64,000 bases of DNA, from contig NZ_CP053452.2 of assembly GCF_013128195.2 (NCBI RefSeq), forward strand, positions 3,968,001 to 4,032,000, written 5' to 3'. The notes below the pieces were generated by a model. That model was not told the origin of the DNA and made no database searches. It saw nothing but the letters and a program-made list of their open reading frames with translations. Source of the DNA: Frigoriglobus tundricola (GTDB lineage: Bacteria > Planctomycetota > Planctomycetia > Gemmatales > Gemmataceae). The position numbers and the translations under genes were made by a program. This document shows, piece after piece, positions 19,291-63,576 of the stretch (the stretch's first letter is position 1; each line of letters opens with the position of its first letter).

Positions 19291-22200
19291 GTGCTCGACC
19301 CCAAACAAATCACCGACGACCTCCGCGGTCAGTTCCGCGGGCGGTTGCACTTCGACCGGCTCACGCGCGGCCTGTACTCCACGGACGCCAGCCCGTTCCA
19401 GATCGAGCCGCTCGCCGTGGCCGTTCCCGAAGATCCGGAGAGCCTCGCGACCCTCGTCCGCTACTGCCACGATCACACGATCGCAGCCGTCCCGCGTGGT
19501 GCGGGAACCGGACTGGCCGGTGAGTCGCTCGGCCCGGCCGTCGTCCTCGATCTGAGCGTTCACTTTCGCCGGGTTCTCGCCATCGGCGCCGACACGGTAA
19601 CGGTTCAACCGGGCGTGGTGCTAAACGACCTGAACGCGGAACTCGCGAAGATCGGCCGCCGCTTCGCCCCGGATCCCGCCAGCGGCGCCACCTGCACGGT
19701 CGGCGGTGTGGTGGCGACGAACGCCTCCGGCGGCAACGCGTTCCACCACGGCTACACCCGTGATTATGTCGCCGGGCTGGGCGTGATCTGGGATTCGGGA
19801 GAAGCGGGCCAGGTCGGCTCGGGGGAAAGACCGGCCCCCCTTCCTGAAGGGAGAGGGGAGAAAGACGAAGAACCCACCCCCAACCCCTCCCTAAAGGGAG
19901 GGGAGCGTTCCGATTCCCCCTTCCCTTCAGGGACGGGGGTCGGTTCATCGCGGACCGACACGATCTCGCAAGAAGTCACCGCGCTTCTCACCCGCCACTC
20001 CGAGCGCATCGCGGTCTCGCGCACACGCACGCCGTTCGACCGCTGCGGCTACCAGCTTCATGGTGTGCTGACCGCTGCAGGTGTCAATCTCGCAAAGCTA
20101 CTCGTCGGCTCGGAAGGCACACTCGCGATCACGACGGAAATTGTGCTCCGAACGGTGCCCCTGGCCGGAGGGACGTGTCTCACACTCTTGGGCTTTCCCA
20201 CGCTCGATGCGGCCGTTCGCGCGGGTCTCGCGCTGCGGCAATTCGGGCCGGTGGCGTGCGACCTGCTCGACCGCCGGCTCCTCTCGGTCACGCGCAACGT
20301 GGGGCTGCCGACCGTGGGCGCTGCGCTCGTGGTCGCGTTCGAGGCCGACACCGAGCGCGAGGCGAAGGAGCGCGCGTGGGGCGCCGTCGAAGCGCTCCGG
20401 CGCGAACACATCCTGCGGGTCCTCGCCGAGCCGACGTGCGAACCGGACGGGAGCGCTCATATCCGCGGCGTGCGGGACGCGGCGGTGTCGGGCCTGTACG
20501 GCTCCGGCGGGCAGCGCCCGGTGGCGTTCATTGAAGATGTGGGCGTTCCGGCCGATGTCCTCCCGGACTTTCTCACCCGCGTGCAGGACGTCCTCAAGCG
20601 CTTCGAAGTGAGTGGCACCTTCCTGGTACACGCGCTCACCGGGCAGGTTCACACCCGCCCGCTCCTCGATCTGAACGATCCGACGGACCGGGCAAAGTTG
20701 TGGCCGATCGCGGAAGCCGTTCACGGTCTCGCCCTGGCCCTCGGCGGCACCGTCAGCACGCAGCACGGCACCGGCATCGCCCGCACGCCCTGGGTCGATC
20801 AGCAGTGCGGTCCGCTCGTCCCGGTGTTCCGCGAACTGAAACGCATCTTCGACCCGAAGGGCATCCTCAACCCGGGCAAGATCGTCGGCCCCGATCCGAG
20901 CCGGGAAGCGTGGCCCCTGCGAACAGAAGTCAGAGGTCAGAGGTCAGAGGACGGAGAACAGAACCCAGGAAGCGGCACCAACGGCAGCGCCCCTGCCGAA
21001 CAGTCCCCCGAACTCCGCGCCCCGACTCCTCTGCTGATGTGGCCCTCGCCACCGATCGCCGAGGCGGGCCGGTGTAACGGGTGCGGCGACTGCCGAACCC
21101 GCACCCCCTCCGCACGAATGTGCCCGACGTTCCGCGCCACCGGAAACGAAGCGGCCACGCCACGGGCGATGGCCAACATGCTCCGCTTACTCACGGCCCC
21201 GGACACTGCGACACCGGAAGAGGTGCGTGCCGTCGCCGAGTGGTGCGTGAACTGCAAAATGTGCCGGGACGAGTGCGACGCGAAGATCGACATTCCCAAG
21301 CTGATGCTCGAAACGAAAGCGAAGCACCACGCGGACCACGGCCTCGACCGCGGCGAATGGACGCTCGCCCGTGCCGAATGGCTCGCGAGCGTGGGGAGCA
21401 ACTTCGCGCCGCTGGTCAATGGCCTCCTGGCCCGGAAGTCGGTCCGCTGGCTGACGGAAAAGCTGTTCGGCATCTCCCGCCACCGGCAGCTCCCCGCCTT
21501 CGCCCTCCGGAACTTCTTCCGCCGCGCTCGTGGCGCGGGCCTGACGAAGAAGCGCACCCCGCGGACCGAAGACTACAAACGTGACCGCCCCGATCCCTTG
21601 TCCGAATTCCGCATCTCGCCCTCAGCGCATCGCACGCCGAAGGTCGCGCTGTTCGTGGACGTGTTCGCGGCTTATAGCGACCCGCTCATCGGAACCGCAG
21701 CGGTTGCGGTGTTACAACACAACGGTATCGAGGTTTATGTGCCGCCCCGCCAGGTCGGGAGCGGGGTGTCCGCTTACGCGCGGGGCGACCTCGATACGGC
21801 TCGCGAGTTCGCCCTCCGCAACGTCCGCGTGTTCGCCGATCTCGCCCGTGAGGGGTACCGCATCGTTTCCCTGGAACCGACCGCGGCGCTGATGCTCGCA
21901 CAGGACTACCTCGACATCCTCGACGACCCCGACACCGCCGCCGTCGCGGCCAACACCGTCGAGCTCTCGACCTACCTCGGGGAACTGCACGCCGCCAAAC
22001 GGCTCCGCACCGACTTCCGCCGACTCGATGTGACACTGGGCCACCACATCCCGTGCCACCTGAAAGCCCTGCGCGGCCCGATCCAATCCCCCGGTCTGCT
22101 CGCACTCGTTCCGGGTGTCCGTGTCCATACGATTGACGCCGGGTGCTCGGGAATGGCCGGCACCTGGGGGCTGAAAGCCGAGAACTACGCGACTTCGATG

Positions 22201-58055: not shown

Positions 58056-60506
58056 TCACGCGCCGTAGTCGATCTCTTCCACGCTCTTGAGCGAGTTCTT
58101 GAAGATGAACGCGCGCCGGTCCTGAACCTCCTTGCCCATCAGCGTGCGGAACATCTCTTCTGCTTTGAACGCGTCGTTCAGTGTCACCTTCATCAGGGTG
58201 CGGTGTTCCGGGTCGAGCGTCGTCGCCCAGAGTTCCTCGGGGTCCATTTCGCCGAGCCCCTTGAACCGCGTCACCGACATCCCCTTTTCGCCCAGCTTGC
58301 GGATCTCCGCGACCAGCTCGCGCAGGCTCACCAGATCCTTGCGGGTGCCGTCGTGTTCGAGCGTGAACCGCACCGGCGGCTCGCGGCCCGCGATCCGCGG
58401 GAGCGGGATCAGGTCCTCCGGCCCGAACGTCAGCCCCTCGAACCCGGCCCCTCTCAGCTTCGTCACGGCCCGGTTGAGCGCCTTCAGATCGTGCCACTCG
58501 TCGAGCGTGTAGTCCTCGCCCGGAACCGGCTCGCGCTTCAGTTCGGCGGTGAGCGCCGCTTTGAACGCGGTCACCTCCTCCATCGTGCGAAACCAGTGGT
58601 CCTTCGCGGTCGCCCGCACGTGAACCTGGTGCGTGGGGAACACGCCGTCCACCCCTCGCGGAATGAACTCGTCGATCGGGTGCCCGCGGCGCTCGAGCCC
58701 GACCACCGCGGCCTCGGCCTCCGTGAGGGCCGGGAGCAGGCGCGTCAAATCGTCACCGGTGATCGTGCGGGCGTCGGTGCCCGGCTTGGTGACGTGCAGC
58801 GTCGTCGCCTTCAGCCCGCGGGCGGTCAACTCGCTACCCATCTCCTCGCGGCTCTGGATGAACCGCGTCTCCTTCTTTTGCACCACCTTGAACAGCGGCG
58901 GGCGGGCGACGAAGATGTGCCCCGTCTCGATCAGCTTCCGCATCTGGCGGAAGAAAAACGTGAGCAGCAGCGTGCGGATGTGCTGACCGTCCACGTCGGC
59001 GTCGGTGAGGATGATGATCTTCCCGTACCGCACCTTGCTCACGTCCTCCACGTTCTCGATGTCCACGCCGGTCGCCGCAATGAGCGCGGAGATTTCGTTG
59101 TTCTCCAGCAGCTTTTCGAGCTTCGCCTTCTCGACGTTCAGCACCTTGCCCTTGAGCGGCAGGATCGCCTGGAACTGCCGGTTCCGGCCGCTTTCCGCAC
59201 TGCCGCCGGCGGAATCACCCTCGACGAGGAACAGCTCGCTCTTTTCGCGCTCGCGGCTCGTGCAGTCGTAGAGCTTGCCCGGCAGCCCGCCGCCGCCGAG
59301 GAGGTTCTTGCGGCCGATGAGCGCCTCGCGCGCCTTCTTGGCCGCGAGCCGCAACTCGGCGGTGAGGGCCACCTTCTTGCAAATCTTCTGCGCCTCCTTC
59401 GGGTTCTTCTCCAGGTACTCCGAGAGCGCTTCGTACATCACGCCCGACACCAGCCCCTCGACGTCCGGGGTGGTCAGCTTCACCTTCGTCTGCGATTCGA
59501 AGCTCGGGTCCGGGTGGCTGATGCTGATGACGGCGGTCAGCCCCTCGCGAAAGTCGTCGCCGCGAATGTCCAGGTCCTTGAAGTGGTTCTCCTTCTTGCC
59601 GTAGGTGTTGATCGCCCGGGTCAGCCCGGAGCGGAACCCGGAGAGGTGCGTCCCGCCGTCCTTGTTGTAGGCGTTGTTGGTGAAGCACATCTCGATCTTG
59701 CTGTCGTTGTTGGTGTACTGCATGCAGACCTCGACGGTGACGCCGTCGATCTGCTTGTTGACGTAGACGGGCGGGTGAACCGGGGTCTCGGCGGTGTTCA
59801 GGAAGGCGACGTACTCGACGATGCCGAGGTCGGACGCGAACGTGTCGGCGCGGCCGTCGCGCTCGTCCTTGATACTGAGCGTCAGTCCGCGGTTGAGGTA
59901 GGCGATCTGCTGGAACCGGGTCGCCAGCTTCTCGTAGTCGAAGCCGAGCGCCCCGAAGATCTCCGGGTCCGGCTTGAACTTGATGGTGGTGCCGGTCTGG
60001 CCCGCGGGCGCCGGGCCGAGGTCCTGCAACTTGCTGCTCGCGTACCCGCGCTCGAACTCCATCTTGTACACGCGGCCGTCGCGGCGCACTTCCGCCTCGC
60101 ACCACTCGGACAGGGCGTTCATCGCCTTCGCGCCCATGCCGTGCAGGCCGGCCGAAACGCGGTACGCGGCGTTGTCGAACTTCCCGCTCGTGCCGGCGAT
60201 GGTCAGCGCCTCTTCGAGCGTCGATTTGCCGGTGTCCGCCTTGGTGCCCACGGGGATGCCGCGGCCGTCGTCCGCGACGGAGATGGACCCGTCCACGTCG
60301 ATGACCACGGTGATCACCTTGCAGTACCCGGCGAGCGCCTCATCGACGGAGTTGTAGACGATTTCGTAGACGAGGTGGTGCAGCCCCTCCACGTCGGTGT
60401 TGCCGACGTACATGCCGGGGTTCTGCCGGATGTGGGCGGCGTCCTTCAGCGTCTTCATGTGGTCTTCGGTGTACTGCCCGACCGCCGGCGTCGTCACGCT
60501 GCTCAT
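58056..60506 (-). CDS. gyrB: DNA gyrase subunit B
   Basis: ATPase subunit of type IIA topoisomerase, 816 residues. The GHKL domain has YEIVYNSVDEALAGYC, DDGRGIPVGTKAD and SAGLHGMGAKAMNALS. The Toprim domain has LFLVEGDSAGGSAESGRNRQ and ILTDADVDGQHIRTLLLTFF. An insert of about 170 residues, as in long-form GyrB, precedes the C-terminal RFKGLGEMDPEELWATTLDP. The end reads KSVEEIDYGA. ATG 60506 is preceded by AGGAGAGG at somewhat long spacing. It is the last gene of the dnaA-dnaN-DUF721-gyrB set; gyrA is not in the window. Confidence 0.96.
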   Translation of the reverse strand: MSSVTTPAVGQYTEDHMKTLKDAAHIRQNPGMYVGNTDVEGLHHLVYEIVYNSVDEALAGYCKVITVVIDVDGSISVADDGRGIPVGTKADTGKSTLEEALTIAGTSGKFDNAAYRVSAGLHGMGAKAMNALSEWCEAEVRRDGRVYKMEFERGYASSKLQDLGPAPAGQTGTTIKFKPDPEIFGALGFDYEKLATRFQQIAYLNRGLTLSIKDERDGRADTFASDLGIVEYVAFLNTAETPVHPPVYVNKQIDGVTVEVCMQYTNNDSKIEMCFTNNAYNKDGGTHLSGFRSGLTRAINTYGKKENHFKDLDIRGDDFREGLTAVISISHPDPSFESQTKVKLTTPDVEGLVSGVMYEALSEYLEKNPKEAQKICKKVALTAELRLAAKKAREALIGRKNLLGGGGLPGKLYDCTSREREKSELFLVEGDSAGGSAESGRNRQFQAILPLKGKVLNVEKAKLEKLLENNEISALIAATGVDIENVEDVSKVRYGKIIILTDADVDGQHIRTLLLTFFFRQMRKLIETGHIFVARPPLFKVVQKKETRFIQSREEMGSELTARGLKATTLHVTKPGTDARTITGDDLTRLLPALTEAEAAVVGLERRGHPIDEFIPRGVDGVFPTHQVHVRATAKDHWFRTMEEVTAFKAALTAELKREPVPGEDYTLDEWHDLKALNRAVTKLRGAGFEGLTFGPEDLIPLPRIAGREPPVRFTLEHDGTRKDLVSLRELVAEIRKLGEKGMSVTRFKGLGEMDPEELWATTLDPEHRTLMKVTLNDAFKAEEMFRTLMGKEVQDRRAFIFKNSLKSVEEIDYGA

Positions 60507-60583
60507 CGTGTTGGTAACCTCTCCTGTTAGTCGCCCAAATCGAACACACCGAGAACAGAAACTTTGTGCCCGCCCGAACGTGC

Positions 60584-60895
60584 TCACCAAGCGGCGGCAC
60601 GGAACTTCAGATCGGTGAGCGTAACGCCGGGCATGGCGGTGCGGAGCTTCGTTAACAGCCCGCGCTTGTGGAACTGCGCCAGCTCCGACATCAGCACCGC
60701 GTTCCGCACCGCGACCTCCAGCACCCCGCGCCGCATCCCGAGTACGTGCGTATCCTTCAACAGCTCCTCGCCGGCCACGGTGGCCCACGCCGACTCCAGC
60801 CGCAACCGATCGTTCTTGCGCCCCCACCCGCGGGACGTGAACAGCCGGCCGAGAATGTCGGCGAGGTTCTCCGGTCCGCGGTTTTCGTTGGCCAT
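60584..60895 (-). CDS. DUF721 / DciA-like protein
   Basis: 103 residues. The family pattern is visible in LADILGRLFTSRGWGRKNDR, LESAWATVAGEELLKDTHVL, RGVLEVAVRNAVLMSELAQF and LLTKLRTAMPGVTLTDLKFR. DUF721 includes DciA, the ancestral replicative-helicase operator found in bacteria that lack DnaC or DnaI. AGGAG lies 5 bases before ATG 60895. The gene sits between dnaN and gyrB, as in many bacteria where DUF721 follows recF, but recF itself is absent. Confidence 0.88.
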   Translation of the reverse strand: MANENRGPENLADILGRLFTSRGWGRKNDRLRLESAWATVAGEELLKDTHVLGMRRGVLEVAVRNAVLMSELAQFHKRGLLTKLRTAMPGVTLTDLKFRAAAW

Positions 60896-60944
60896 ACCCG
60901 CTCCTGGCAAACGGCTGGGGAGAGCACCTGAACCCCGAACTCAA

Positions 60945-62075
60945 TCACCCCGTCAGCGGCATCACGAGGTACGAGTACTGATCGCCGCATTTGAACAGCG
61001 CCGCCCGGCTGCCGGTGGACATCTCCAGCACCACCGTGGGTTCGTCTTCGAGCGCCCGGAGGAACTCAATCAGATACTGCGGGTCGAACGCGATCTCCGT
61101 TGGCGGTCCGTCGTACTCCGGCAGCGCCAGTGACACTTCGCTCGACCCGGTTTTCGCGCCGCGGGCCTTCATCGTGACCTGACCCGGCTCGAACGTCATG
61201 TCCACCCGCATGCTCTCCTCGTCCGTCATGATCGCGGACTGGCGCACGCGCGAGAGGAACTCCACCACGGGGAGAGAAATCTTCTGCACCGCCTCCTTGC
61301 GTGTCTTCGCGATGATGTCGCGGTACGGCGGGAACTTCCCCTGAACCAGCGAGGTGTAGATCATCGCCCGCTCGGTCTGGAACAGCGCGTCGTTGGTCCG
61401 CAGGCCGACGCGAACCAGCTCGTTGTCATCAACCAGATTGCGTTCGAGGAGCCCGACGGCCTTCAGCGGTACAAGGTGGACCGCCTTCACCGTATCGGTC
61501 GGGCCGTGAACGGTCGCCACCCCCTCACACACCGCGAGCCGCTTTGTGTCGGTCGCCACCAAGCGAGTCGTCTGGCCCTCGGCCTCCCACAGCACACCGG
61601 TCAGAGCGAACTTCGCGGTGGTGTCTTTCTTGTCCGCGGCGAACGCGGTCCGCTTGATGAGCGTTCGCAGGGTGCCGGCCGTGACCTCGTGGTACCGGCC
61701 CCCGTCGTCGAACGAGGGGATGTCGGGGAACTCGTCCACATCGAGGCTGAGCATCTCGTACCGGCCGCTCGCCTTTGCAACGACCGCTTCCTTACCCGCG
61801 TCCAGGCTGATGTCGGCGTCGCTGCTCTCGCGAAGGATTTGAATCAGTTGGTCCTTCGGCAGGATGCACGACCCCGCACGGGCCACGGTGATGCCACGTA
61901 GCTCGTAGCGAATGCCGACCCCCTGTGTCGGGTCGTAAGCGACGAGCAAGAGGGCGTCGTCGTGGGCGGTGGCCTTGATGTTCTTGAGCGCGGGGATGGT
62001 GGTGTGGGCCGGCACCGCGGCGGAGACCGCCTGACACGCCATCAGCAAACTGTCCCGCTGGCACGTCACTTTCAT
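60945..62075 (-). CDS. dnaN: DNA polymerase III sliding clamp
   Basis: Beta clamp, 376 residues, which keeps the replicative polymerase on DNA. The start MKVTCQRDSLLMACQAVSAA is typical. Three repeated clamp domains follow, with ILPKDQLIQILRESSDADIS, FALTGVLWEAEGQTTRLVAT, DTKRLAVCEG and FDPQYLIEFLRALEDE. It ends with YSYLVMPLTG. It follows the oriC-like region and precedes DUF721 by 49 bases. Confidence 0.96.
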   Translation of the reverse strand: MKVTCQRDSLLMACQAVSAAVPAHTTIPALKNIKATAHDDALLLVAYDPTQGVGIRYELRGITVARAGSCILPKDQLIQILRESSDADISLDAGKEAVVAKASGRYEMLSLDVDEFPDIPSFDDGGRYHEVTAGTLRTLIKRTAFAADKKDTTAKFALTGVLWEAEGQTTRLVATDTKRLAVCEGVATVHGPTDTVKAVHLVPLKAVGLLERNLVDDNELVRVGLRTNDALFQTERAMIYTSLVQGKFPPYRDIIAKTRKEAVQKISLPVVEFLSRVRQSAIMTDEESMRVDMTFEPGQVTMKARGAKTGSSEVSLALPEYDGPPTEIAFDPQYLIEFLRALEDEPTVVLEMSTGSRAALFKCGDQYSYLVMPLTG

Positions 62076-62176
62076 GGCGAACCCTCCTCCGCCTTCCTTG
62101 GGGTTTTGGCTTTCGCTACGCGAGCGTCAACCAGATACCTTTAGTTCTTAGTTTTAAACATCCAGTAGCAGTAGTA

Positions 62177-62204
62177 AGGTGCGCGCCCTTTCTGGCGCGC
62201 ACCT
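62177..62204. repeat. Hairpin in the origin region
   Basis: A perfect 11-bp stem AGGTGCGCGCC/GGCGCGCACCT with loop CTTTCT. It lies between the AT-rich stretch and the DnaA-box repeat. It could end transcription from dnaA or be structural in the origin. Confidence 0.7.
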
Positions 62205-62258: not shown

Positions 62259-62290
62259 CCTGTGGACAACGTGGCGCGCGAGTGGCGCGC
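62259..62290. promoter_or_regulatory. Left arm of origin inverted repeat, DnaA box on minus strand
   Basis: Starts CCTGTGGACAACGTGGCGCG. It contains TGTGGACAA (62261-62269), the complement of the DnaA box TTGTCCACA, which differs from TTATCCACA at one tolerated position. The whole arm is the exact complement of 62373-62404. Confidence 0.8.
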
Positions 62291-62372: not shown

Positions 62373-62404
62373 GCGCGCCACTCGCGCGCCACGTTGTCCA
62401 CAGG
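62373..62404. promoter_or_regulatory. Right arm of origin inverted repeat, DnaA box on plus strand
   Basis: Ends with CGTTGTCCACAGG, containing the DnaA box TTGTCCACA at 62394-62402. The two boxes point away from each other, 124 bases apart, with an 82-base spacer between the arms. Confidence 0.8.
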
Positions 62405-62418
62405 TTGAAGAACCCCCA

Positions 62419-62520
62419 CGGCCCCCCTCCCTGAAGGGAAGGGGCGTTGTCCGGCTCCCCTCCCTGAAGGGAAGGGGCGTTGTCCGGCTCCCCTCCCTTC
62501 AGGGAGGGGTTGGGGTGGGT
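62419..62520. repeat. CCTTCCCT/AGGGAAGG palindromic repeat, copy 3, tandem
   Basis: Two direct copies of CCCCTCCCTGAAGGGAAGGG followed by GCGTTGTCCGGCT, then an inverted unit CCCCTCCCTTCAGGGAGGGG. It lies between the origin repeat and the 3' end of dnaA (7 bases from the stop). Confidence 0.82.
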
Positions 62521-62526
62521 TGCCTT

Positions 62527-63576
62527 TCATCCCAACCCCACACGAAGGTCGCTCACCCGCTTCGCCAGACCCAAGTCGCTAGCCATGTCTTCTTCCACCT
62601 TGCGGCACGCGTGCAGCACGGTTGTGTGGTCGCGTCCCCCGAACGCCACGCCGATGCGGGGAAGCGACAGGCCCGTCAGTTCGCGAGCGAGGTACATCGC
62701 GATTTGTCGCGGTTTCAGCACGCCGCGAAGCCGGCTCGTGCTGAGGATGTCCTTTTCACTCACTCCGAATGCCGATGCCACACCCTTTACGATCTGGGAA
62801 ACGTCGCCCGGGGCCGATGTCGGTTGTCCGGTTCCGACGAGTGTTTGTTCCACGTCCGTCCGGGTAAGCGGACCGGGGAAAGTTTTCGCGACCTGAGCCA
62901 GGTTTTGAAGGAAACCGAGTGTGGAACGAACTCCGCCGCCGGTCGCCTGGTCCGAGAGCCAATCGAGCGCTTCGGCCGTGAGTCGGACGCCCCTTGTTGC
63001 GGCGGCATCAGCGAGGATGACACGACGGCTCGGTGCCGAGAGCGGTTCGAGTTGCACGACCAGTCCGGCCGCGAGCCGGGAGGTCAGACGCCGCGGAAGG
63101 TGTGTCAGGCCCGCGGGACCGGCGCGGGCGGTGAGGATCGTGGCGCGGCGATGAGTGGCGCGACGGTCGATTAGCTCGCACGCCGCGTCCGCTCGGCGTT
63201 CGGTCAGGTGCTGGATGTCTTCCAGAGCGAGCACATCACAATCGAACAACTCGTCATCACCGAGTCCTTCGTCCGGCGAACGAGTCAGATCACCCGCTGA
63301 GACCGTCCGAAGGGTGATCCCGTTCGGTGCATTTGAGAGGCGTTCCGTAAGAGCCGCGATCAGTCGCGATTTCCCGGTCCCGGGTGTGCCGTGCAGGACA
63401 AGTGGGTTGACCGCAGGTCGCTTACCCGCAAGAACCGTGCGACACACCGATCGCACCGCACGCACTCCGACGCGATTTTCCGCCAGTACCAAAAAACCAT
63501 GCCAACGAGGCGACGAAAGAGCAGCTTGAGGGGCCTCGTTGCCGGGTCCAGTTGGAGTTTTCGTAACGGTGTTCAT
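62527..63576 (-). CDS. dnaA: Chromosomal replication initiator DnaA lacking domain I
   Basis: Origin-binding AAA+ initiator, 349 residues against the usual 430-470. The AAA+ core starts at about residue 25 (WHGFLVLAENRVGVRAVRSV). Walker A is GTPGTGKS at 63-70, Walker B LALEDIQHL, and the arginine finger lies in RRLTSRLAAGLVV. Domain IV is complete, with PRQIAMYLARELTGLSLPRI and the signature FGGRDHTTVLHACRKVE. The codon before ATG 63576 is TGA, so the reading cannot be extended to include domain I, which normally contacts the helicase. The ribosome-binding site is not obvious. Genes dnaN, DUF721 and gyrB follow on the same strand. Confidence 0.92.
   Translation of the reverse strand: MNTVTKTPTGPGNEAPQAALSSPRWHGFLVLAENRVGVRAVRSVCRTVLAGKRPAVNPLVLHGTPGTGKSRLIAALTERLSNAPNGITLRTVSAGDLTRSPDEGLGDDELFDCDVLALEDIQHLTERRADAACELIDRRATHRRATILTARAGPAGLTHLPRRLTSRLAAGLVVQLEPLSAPSRRVILADAAATRGVRLTAEALDWLSDQATGGGVRSTLGFLQNLAQVAKTFPGPLTRTDVEQTLVGTGQPTSAPGDVSQIVKGVASAFGVSEKDILSTSRLRGVLKPRQIAMYLARELTGLSLPRIGVAFGGRDHTTVLHACRKVEEDMASDLGLAKRVSDLRVGLG

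Follow-up and report, generated by a model that had tools for sequence, protein, structure and literature searches.

The 64,000-nucleotide stretch of the Frigoriglobus tundricola chromosome that was analysed here (the window) carries four genes on its minus strand in the order dnaA-dnaN-dciA-gyrB, which is that of the classical origin locus. The short dnaA gene (62527..63576) is followed by dnaN, encoding the sliding clamp (60945..62075; Pfam PF00712, PF02767 and PF02768), by dciA, encoding the helicase operator (60584..60910; PF05258, E 6.7e-14), and by a gyrB frame with the Pfam gyrase B domains (58056..60944). Since the gyrB frame overlaps dciA, the true gyrB start probably lies near 60480. 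As described in the initial annotation, the dnaA product is a protein of 349 amino acids with an ATG start, immediately preceded by an in-frame TGA, and with its Walker A motif, GTPGTGKS, at residues 63-70. It consists of domains III and IV only, recognized by Pfam as Bac_DnaA (PF00308, E 4.1e-9, 37.3 bits versus a cut-off of 23) and Bac_DnaA_C (PF08299, E 1.2e-28, 99.4 bits versus a cut-off of 31.5), the latter comprising the box-binding helix-turn-helix that carries GGRDHTTVLHACRK. The cut-off of the NCBI equivalog TIGR00362 (343.9 bits) was missed both by the short protein (184.2 bits) and by the long copy described below (312.2 bits), and we therefore refer to the short protein as a DnaA-family paralogue rather than a standard DnaA. 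An AlphaFold model made from 31 short copies (mean pLDDT 89, pTM 0.73) had low confidence at residues 1-6 and 11-18 and showed the DnaA III-IV fold thereafter. The PDB entries closest in sequence and fold, domains III-IV of DnaA from Aquifex aeolicus (1l8q, 2hcb, 3r8f) and Bacillus subtilis (8btg), share this two-domain fold, although both proteins are generally understood to carry domain I, which the short DnaA naturally lacks. Hda, a DnaA-related regulator with domain III and no domain IV, is likewise a DnaA relative devoid of domain I and gave weaker PDB matches (3bos, 3sc3). However, the short DnaA reached only 69 bits against the NCBIfam Hda model (cut-off 194.8), and its strong domain IV (99 bits) indicates that it is not an Hda.

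Domain I might seem to be missing merely through an assembly error or a wrongly chosen start, the domain being in truth encoded upstream. A domain-I profile made from the N-termini of long copies, which recovered all 37 long copies having been built from them, matched E. coli DnaA (2.8e-11) and, in other classes, 9 of 11 canonical (A) and 9 of 10 second (B) copies. The same profile detected domain I in none of the 31 short copies, that of the window included, even at E 1, the upstream side lying outside the view for the six rows that begin at the edge of a record or stretch. Two further domain-I profiles gave a best short-copy value of E 0.3, and when the window and the short-copy loci were translated in six frames and scanned with all three profiles, the best value was E 0.54, so that a recognisable domain I is not concealed there by a frameshift. 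Pfam DnaA_N matched most long copies (34 of 37) and most rows of the B set (8 of 11) and few A copies (2 of 11), and for the short copies it does not appear among the 25 families shown of 72. A search of the genome for a separate domain-I protein with PF11638 had no match up to E 10, this model also missing domain I of the genome's own long copy. Among the matches listed, the DnaA of relatives had similarly short lengths. With the in-frame TGA before the ATG, the empty six-frame searches around the gene and the similar length in other genomes all speaking against it, a hidden upstream domain I, whether behind a frameshift or another start, was rejected as extremely unlikely, and the earlier statement that no alternative start recovers the domain holds.

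The absence of domain I pertains to this protein and not to the organism. The short DnaA is not the only one. A second, full-length dnaA with domain I, which the initial annotation had named as a finding that would refute it, was found approximately 123 kb away (C1:3905420-3907123, minus strand), which means that the organism as a whole is not without this domain and that the initial annotation was correct for the protein alone. In the family to which F. tundricola belongs all 95 genomes matched the short protein, at least 79 of them with two or more matches (hand count). Across the class, for which 248 genomes of at least 90% completeness were taken in, two or more DnaA-type (domain-IV) proteins were counted by hand in 212 genomes and one in 36, and the order's other family had a single domain-IV protein in each of its 5 genomes. 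Thirty further genomes representing 23 genera matched both the long and the short query. In the four single-copy genomes whose sequences were inspected (G129, G149, G152 and G107), the copy that is kept is of the long type, suggesting that the long copy can suffice. Each of 11 genomes inspected from other classes also had two DnaA copies, in frames of 440-832 amino acids apart from one cut by a contig end, and up to 12 DnaA domain-IV matches were observed in G396, G403 and other genomes of families f42 and f62 of other classes.

The motifs of domains III and IV had been regarded as intact in the short DnaA, which proved right for the box-reading residues of domain IV and only partly right for domain III, where the Walker B Asp is replaced by Glu. 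We compared such positions under E. coli residue numbers and roles. In the 31 short copies the Walker A Lys (K178) is invariant, the Arg finger (R285) is present in 29 and the sensor-II Arg (R334) in 23, and the Walker B position is Asp (D235) in 10 and Glu in 20, as it is in the 349-residue protein; the box-reading Asp (D433) and H434 are each found in 30. The long copies have K178, D235 and R285 in 37/37 and R334 in 36/37, and R281 in none (Glu in 35). H434 occurs in all 37 of them and D433 in only one. This sole long copy with D433 (L095) comes from G152, which lacks the short copy; it is an isolated case, unmatched by G107, G129 and G149.

The 451-bp gap between the short dnaA and dnaN holds the window's only two exact TTGTCCACA sites, which form an inverted pair of DnaA boxes, one nearer the short dnaA (62394..62402, plus strand) and its partner 133 bp away, start to start (62261..62269, minus strand). 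Two TGGCGCGC repeats with an 11-bp period run inward from each box (62373..62391, minus strand, and 62272..62290, plus strand) and, like the boxes, are conserved in relatives. Near dnaN there is a DnaA-trio-like run, TTACTACTGCTACTG (62163..62177, minus strand), a length reached in 0 of 500 shuffles, and adjoining it an AT-rich stretch (62135..62160, minus strand) that may act as an unwinding element. Trio-like runs of at least 5 occurred in 13 of 45 regions versus 0.05 expected, mostly in one genus. Boxes, trio-like run and AT-rich DNA within one intergenic region resemble the basal unwinding system of DnaA boxes and DnaA-trios as outlined in the available part of PMC8287927, from which the present region differs in that its nearest exact box is some 80 bp from the trio-like run, the run being preceded by GCGCGCC/GGGCGCGC. 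These two motifs form an inverted pair (62181-62200) immediately before the run, at the place expected for a DnaA box. The palindrome-like repeat CCCTTCAGGGAGGGG was observed in six copies (at most one mismatch; none expected from shuffles) forming two clusters, at 19837-19937 and at 62424-62509, the second located between the short dnaA and the box pair. An RNA element between the boxes was considered and rejected, all matches up to E 0.5 lying far under the gathering scores.

With a box defined as at most one mismatch from TTNTCCACA, an inverted pair at 131-137 bp, a range chosen after the spacings had been viewed, was present in 36 of 45 distinct short dnaA-dnaN intergenic regions and missing from 9, in a set that excludes one region of less than 150 bp and loci without dnaN. 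Intergenic regions from other families contained such a pair in 6 of 12 cases. First-order shuffles (200 rounds) averaged 0.01 and never exceeded 1, and the counts in seven alternative spacing windows were 0 or 1. In 30 aligned regions the spacing was 133 bp in 22, 134 in 5, 135 in 2 and 123 in 1. The strict pattern TGTGGANAACNNGGCGCGC has a single occurrence on each strand of the F. tundricola genome, both of them in the short dnaA-dnaN gap, and was found in 33 of the 95 family genomes, exactly once per strand in 20, while the reversed control gave 3 hits. Upstream of dnaN in 16 genomes without the short copy, 13 had no boxes and one had unpaired boxes. The remaining two (L327 in G124 and L330 in G118, of one genus) had an inverted TTATCCACA pair with a spacing of 203 bp.

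In addition to these elements, gene position and strand composition were analyzed. Within 1.5-kb flanks (20 kb for the F. tundricola long copy), dnaN adjoined the short copy in 25 of 30 loci as well as in the window and was beside none of the 37 long copies; in other classes it adjoined 2 of 11 A copies and none of the 10 B copies. The cumulative GC skew of the contiguous 154-kb stretch 3,968,001-4,122,000 reached its minimum at 4,030,790, within the short gene. Since free two-step fits to the skew were ambiguous, the origin was instead fixed at each gene, and in this test, which treats windows as independent and samples G000 more densely around the short copy, the skew turned at the short copy in three of four sampled chromosomes. 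The right-left difference with the origin at the short copy was positive in G000 (permutation p 0.005, best rotation 4.03 Mb), G146 (p 0.006, best at 0.00) and G103 (p 0.037, best at 4.34 Mb of 4.81), and G051 showed no skew signal. Fixing the origin at the long copy gave 0.15 in G000; in G146 and G103, whose long copies are situated towards the opposite pole, the difference was reversed. AT skew agreed at p < 0.05 in G103 alone. The region thus combines two oriC hallmarks, a GC-skew minimum and a DnaA box cluster (G051 being without the skew signal), and from these features we infer that the segment between the short dnaA and dnaN is the putative oriC. A comparable arrangement has been described for another planctomycete, Kuenenia stuttgartiensis, which has three dnaA genes, one of them beside dnaN and gyrB where the skew places the origin (PMC7709395); however, neither a loss of domain I nor such an origin layout is mentioned in the available part of that report.

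In a tree of 91 rows based on domains III-IV, from which L066 (204-amino-acid frame) and L082 (partial) had been removed, the short copies formed one clade (31 rows, 100/96), as did the long copies of the class (37 rows, 82/97), and the two were joined at 92/62. A 347-amino-acid-frame short DnaA on a contig of an uncultured Planctomycetaceae bacterium (L245) grouped with the short copies in the outgroup tree described next. A DnaA-like protein of 518 amino acids with a degraded recognition motif (L110, from G283), which was assigned to no group, was placed beside the short clade. When 12 outgroup rows from other phyla were added, the rooted tree again separated short (15 rows, 100/100) and long copies (15 rows, 100/98). 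In it the class long copies grouped at 97/93 with 9 of the 10 B copies found in other classes, and the short copies lay outside this group. This duplication is accordingly older than the class, and the possibility that the short copy arose from the long one by a recent duplication at class level was rejected on this basis. The branch leading to the short copies is long (0.89) and falls on the B side, together with all B copies at 96/97, which argues against simple orthology with the canonical A copies. A union of short and A copies was not rejected by the AU test (p 0.297 in the 91-row tree, 0.116 in the outgroup tree). Orthology with the A copies is therefore not established, the trees preferring another place and only gene position and the domain IV residues speaking for it.

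Of 465 genome pairs, 464 showed faster evolution of the short than of the long copies, with a median of 1.84-fold, and this, along with motif decay in some rows and repeated absence, would be expected if the short gene were a relic of the ancestral dnaA, decaying while its long paralogue takes over, with the position beside dnaN and the boxes as leftovers. Yet dN/dS of the short copies was 0.12-0.21 (six pairs from four genomes; dS 0.8-1.5), indicating purifying selection, the equivalents of D433 and H434 are retained in 30 of 31 copies, and the gene is present over the class with a constant box spacing, which makes a decaying relic very unlikely. The short gene is a selected gene common to most of the class and located beside an origin-like region.

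We consider it reasonably probable (about 60%) that the short DnaA is one half of an old DnaA pair, an origin-bound core to which domain I is supplied in trans by the long copy, by DciA, or by both. Domains I and II would have been lost apparently once, in an ancestor of the class. The short protein would bind both members of the inverted TTNTCCACA pair, which are some 133 bp from each other, and may help to open the neighbouring trio-like, AT-rich DNA. Domain I has been regarded as a hub that recruits the replicative helicase (PMC8287927, available part), and loss of DciA blocked initiation after open-complex formation in the cells studied (PMC5109545, available part). Helicase loading could accordingly be provided by the full-length paralogue or possibly by the DciA encoded at the same locus. 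This reading is based on the full-length copy, the single short clade, the position beside dnaN, the skew, the box pairs, the retained D433, Walker A and Arg finger, and dN/dS; against it speak the lineages with a long copy alone, the trees placing the short copies nearer to long and B copies than to the canonical ones, their faster evolution, the frequent changes of R334 and D235, the skewless G051 and the 9 of 45 regions without a box pair.

The main rival to an origin-bound core is a regulator competing for the boxes, that is, a domain-I-less DnaA which occupies the same sites and blocks or times initiation by the full-length copy or controls its own operon's transcription; the box pair would then serve as an operator or belong to the origin as a regulatory element. 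The missing domain I, the altered Walker B motif, the faster evolution, the boxes directly upstream of dnaN and the lineages that have dispensed with the short copy would all fit such a role. Against it speak the Arg finger needed for filament formation, retained in 29 of 31 copies, the skew that turns at this locus, and the trio-like run and AT-rich stretch in the same gap, and we regard it as rather unlikely.

A more elaborate form of the preferred reading, in which an origin-bound short DnaA acts with its long paralogue, is suggested by the repeats. In E. coli oriC opposed arrays of weaker sites, about one helical turn per site, are anchored on strong boxes. The region described here is similar in having opposed, helical-turn-spaced repeat arrays anchored on boxes but differs in its two outer boxes at a fixed 133 bp, its GGCGCGC-type repeats and its two DnaA paralogues. 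The short DnaA might occupy the paired TTNTCCACA boxes while the long copy fills the inward 11-bp repeats and brings the helicase, so that DNA-reading and loading roles would be divided between the two DnaAs in a mixed complex. The long copy, with its changed recognition helix, would then read GGCGCGC repeats where it has Lys at E. coli position 432 and TGTCRA-like repeats elsewhere. In a comparison limited to genomes with a recognised box pair and uncorrected for genome base composition, 19 of 20 genomes with a Lys-432 long copy had GGCGCG-type arms, as did 5 of the 17 remaining genomes (Fisher p 6e-5); G098, G081 and G146, missed by the pattern, were scored by eye and added by hand. Exceptions were G004 (both arms), G052 and G053 (one arm), G005 (Lys without the motif), and G038 and G050 (out of phase or second repeat). 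Because only three independent changes underlie the association, a phylogeny-aware sign test gave p 1, and we do not accept it as proof. The association hints, at the level of sequence, that the long copy may read the repeats, and the two-initiator origin is a possible though doubtful proposal.

Titles and abstracts of the open-access literature, which leaves most subscription papers beyond its scope, contained no domain-I-less DnaA and no such origin layout, and the combination of box pair, inward 11-bp repeats and trio-like run on the predicted origin appears to have no description there. In summary, most of a bacterial class encodes a DnaA without domain I at the probable origin and, at another site, a second DnaA that has domain I and altered box-reading residues. 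With this pair, common in the class, the start of replication may be shared between two proteins. If the work is indeed divided between them, the pair would constitute a natural separation-of-function system for bacterial initiation, and the planctomycetes gain a concrete candidate origin.
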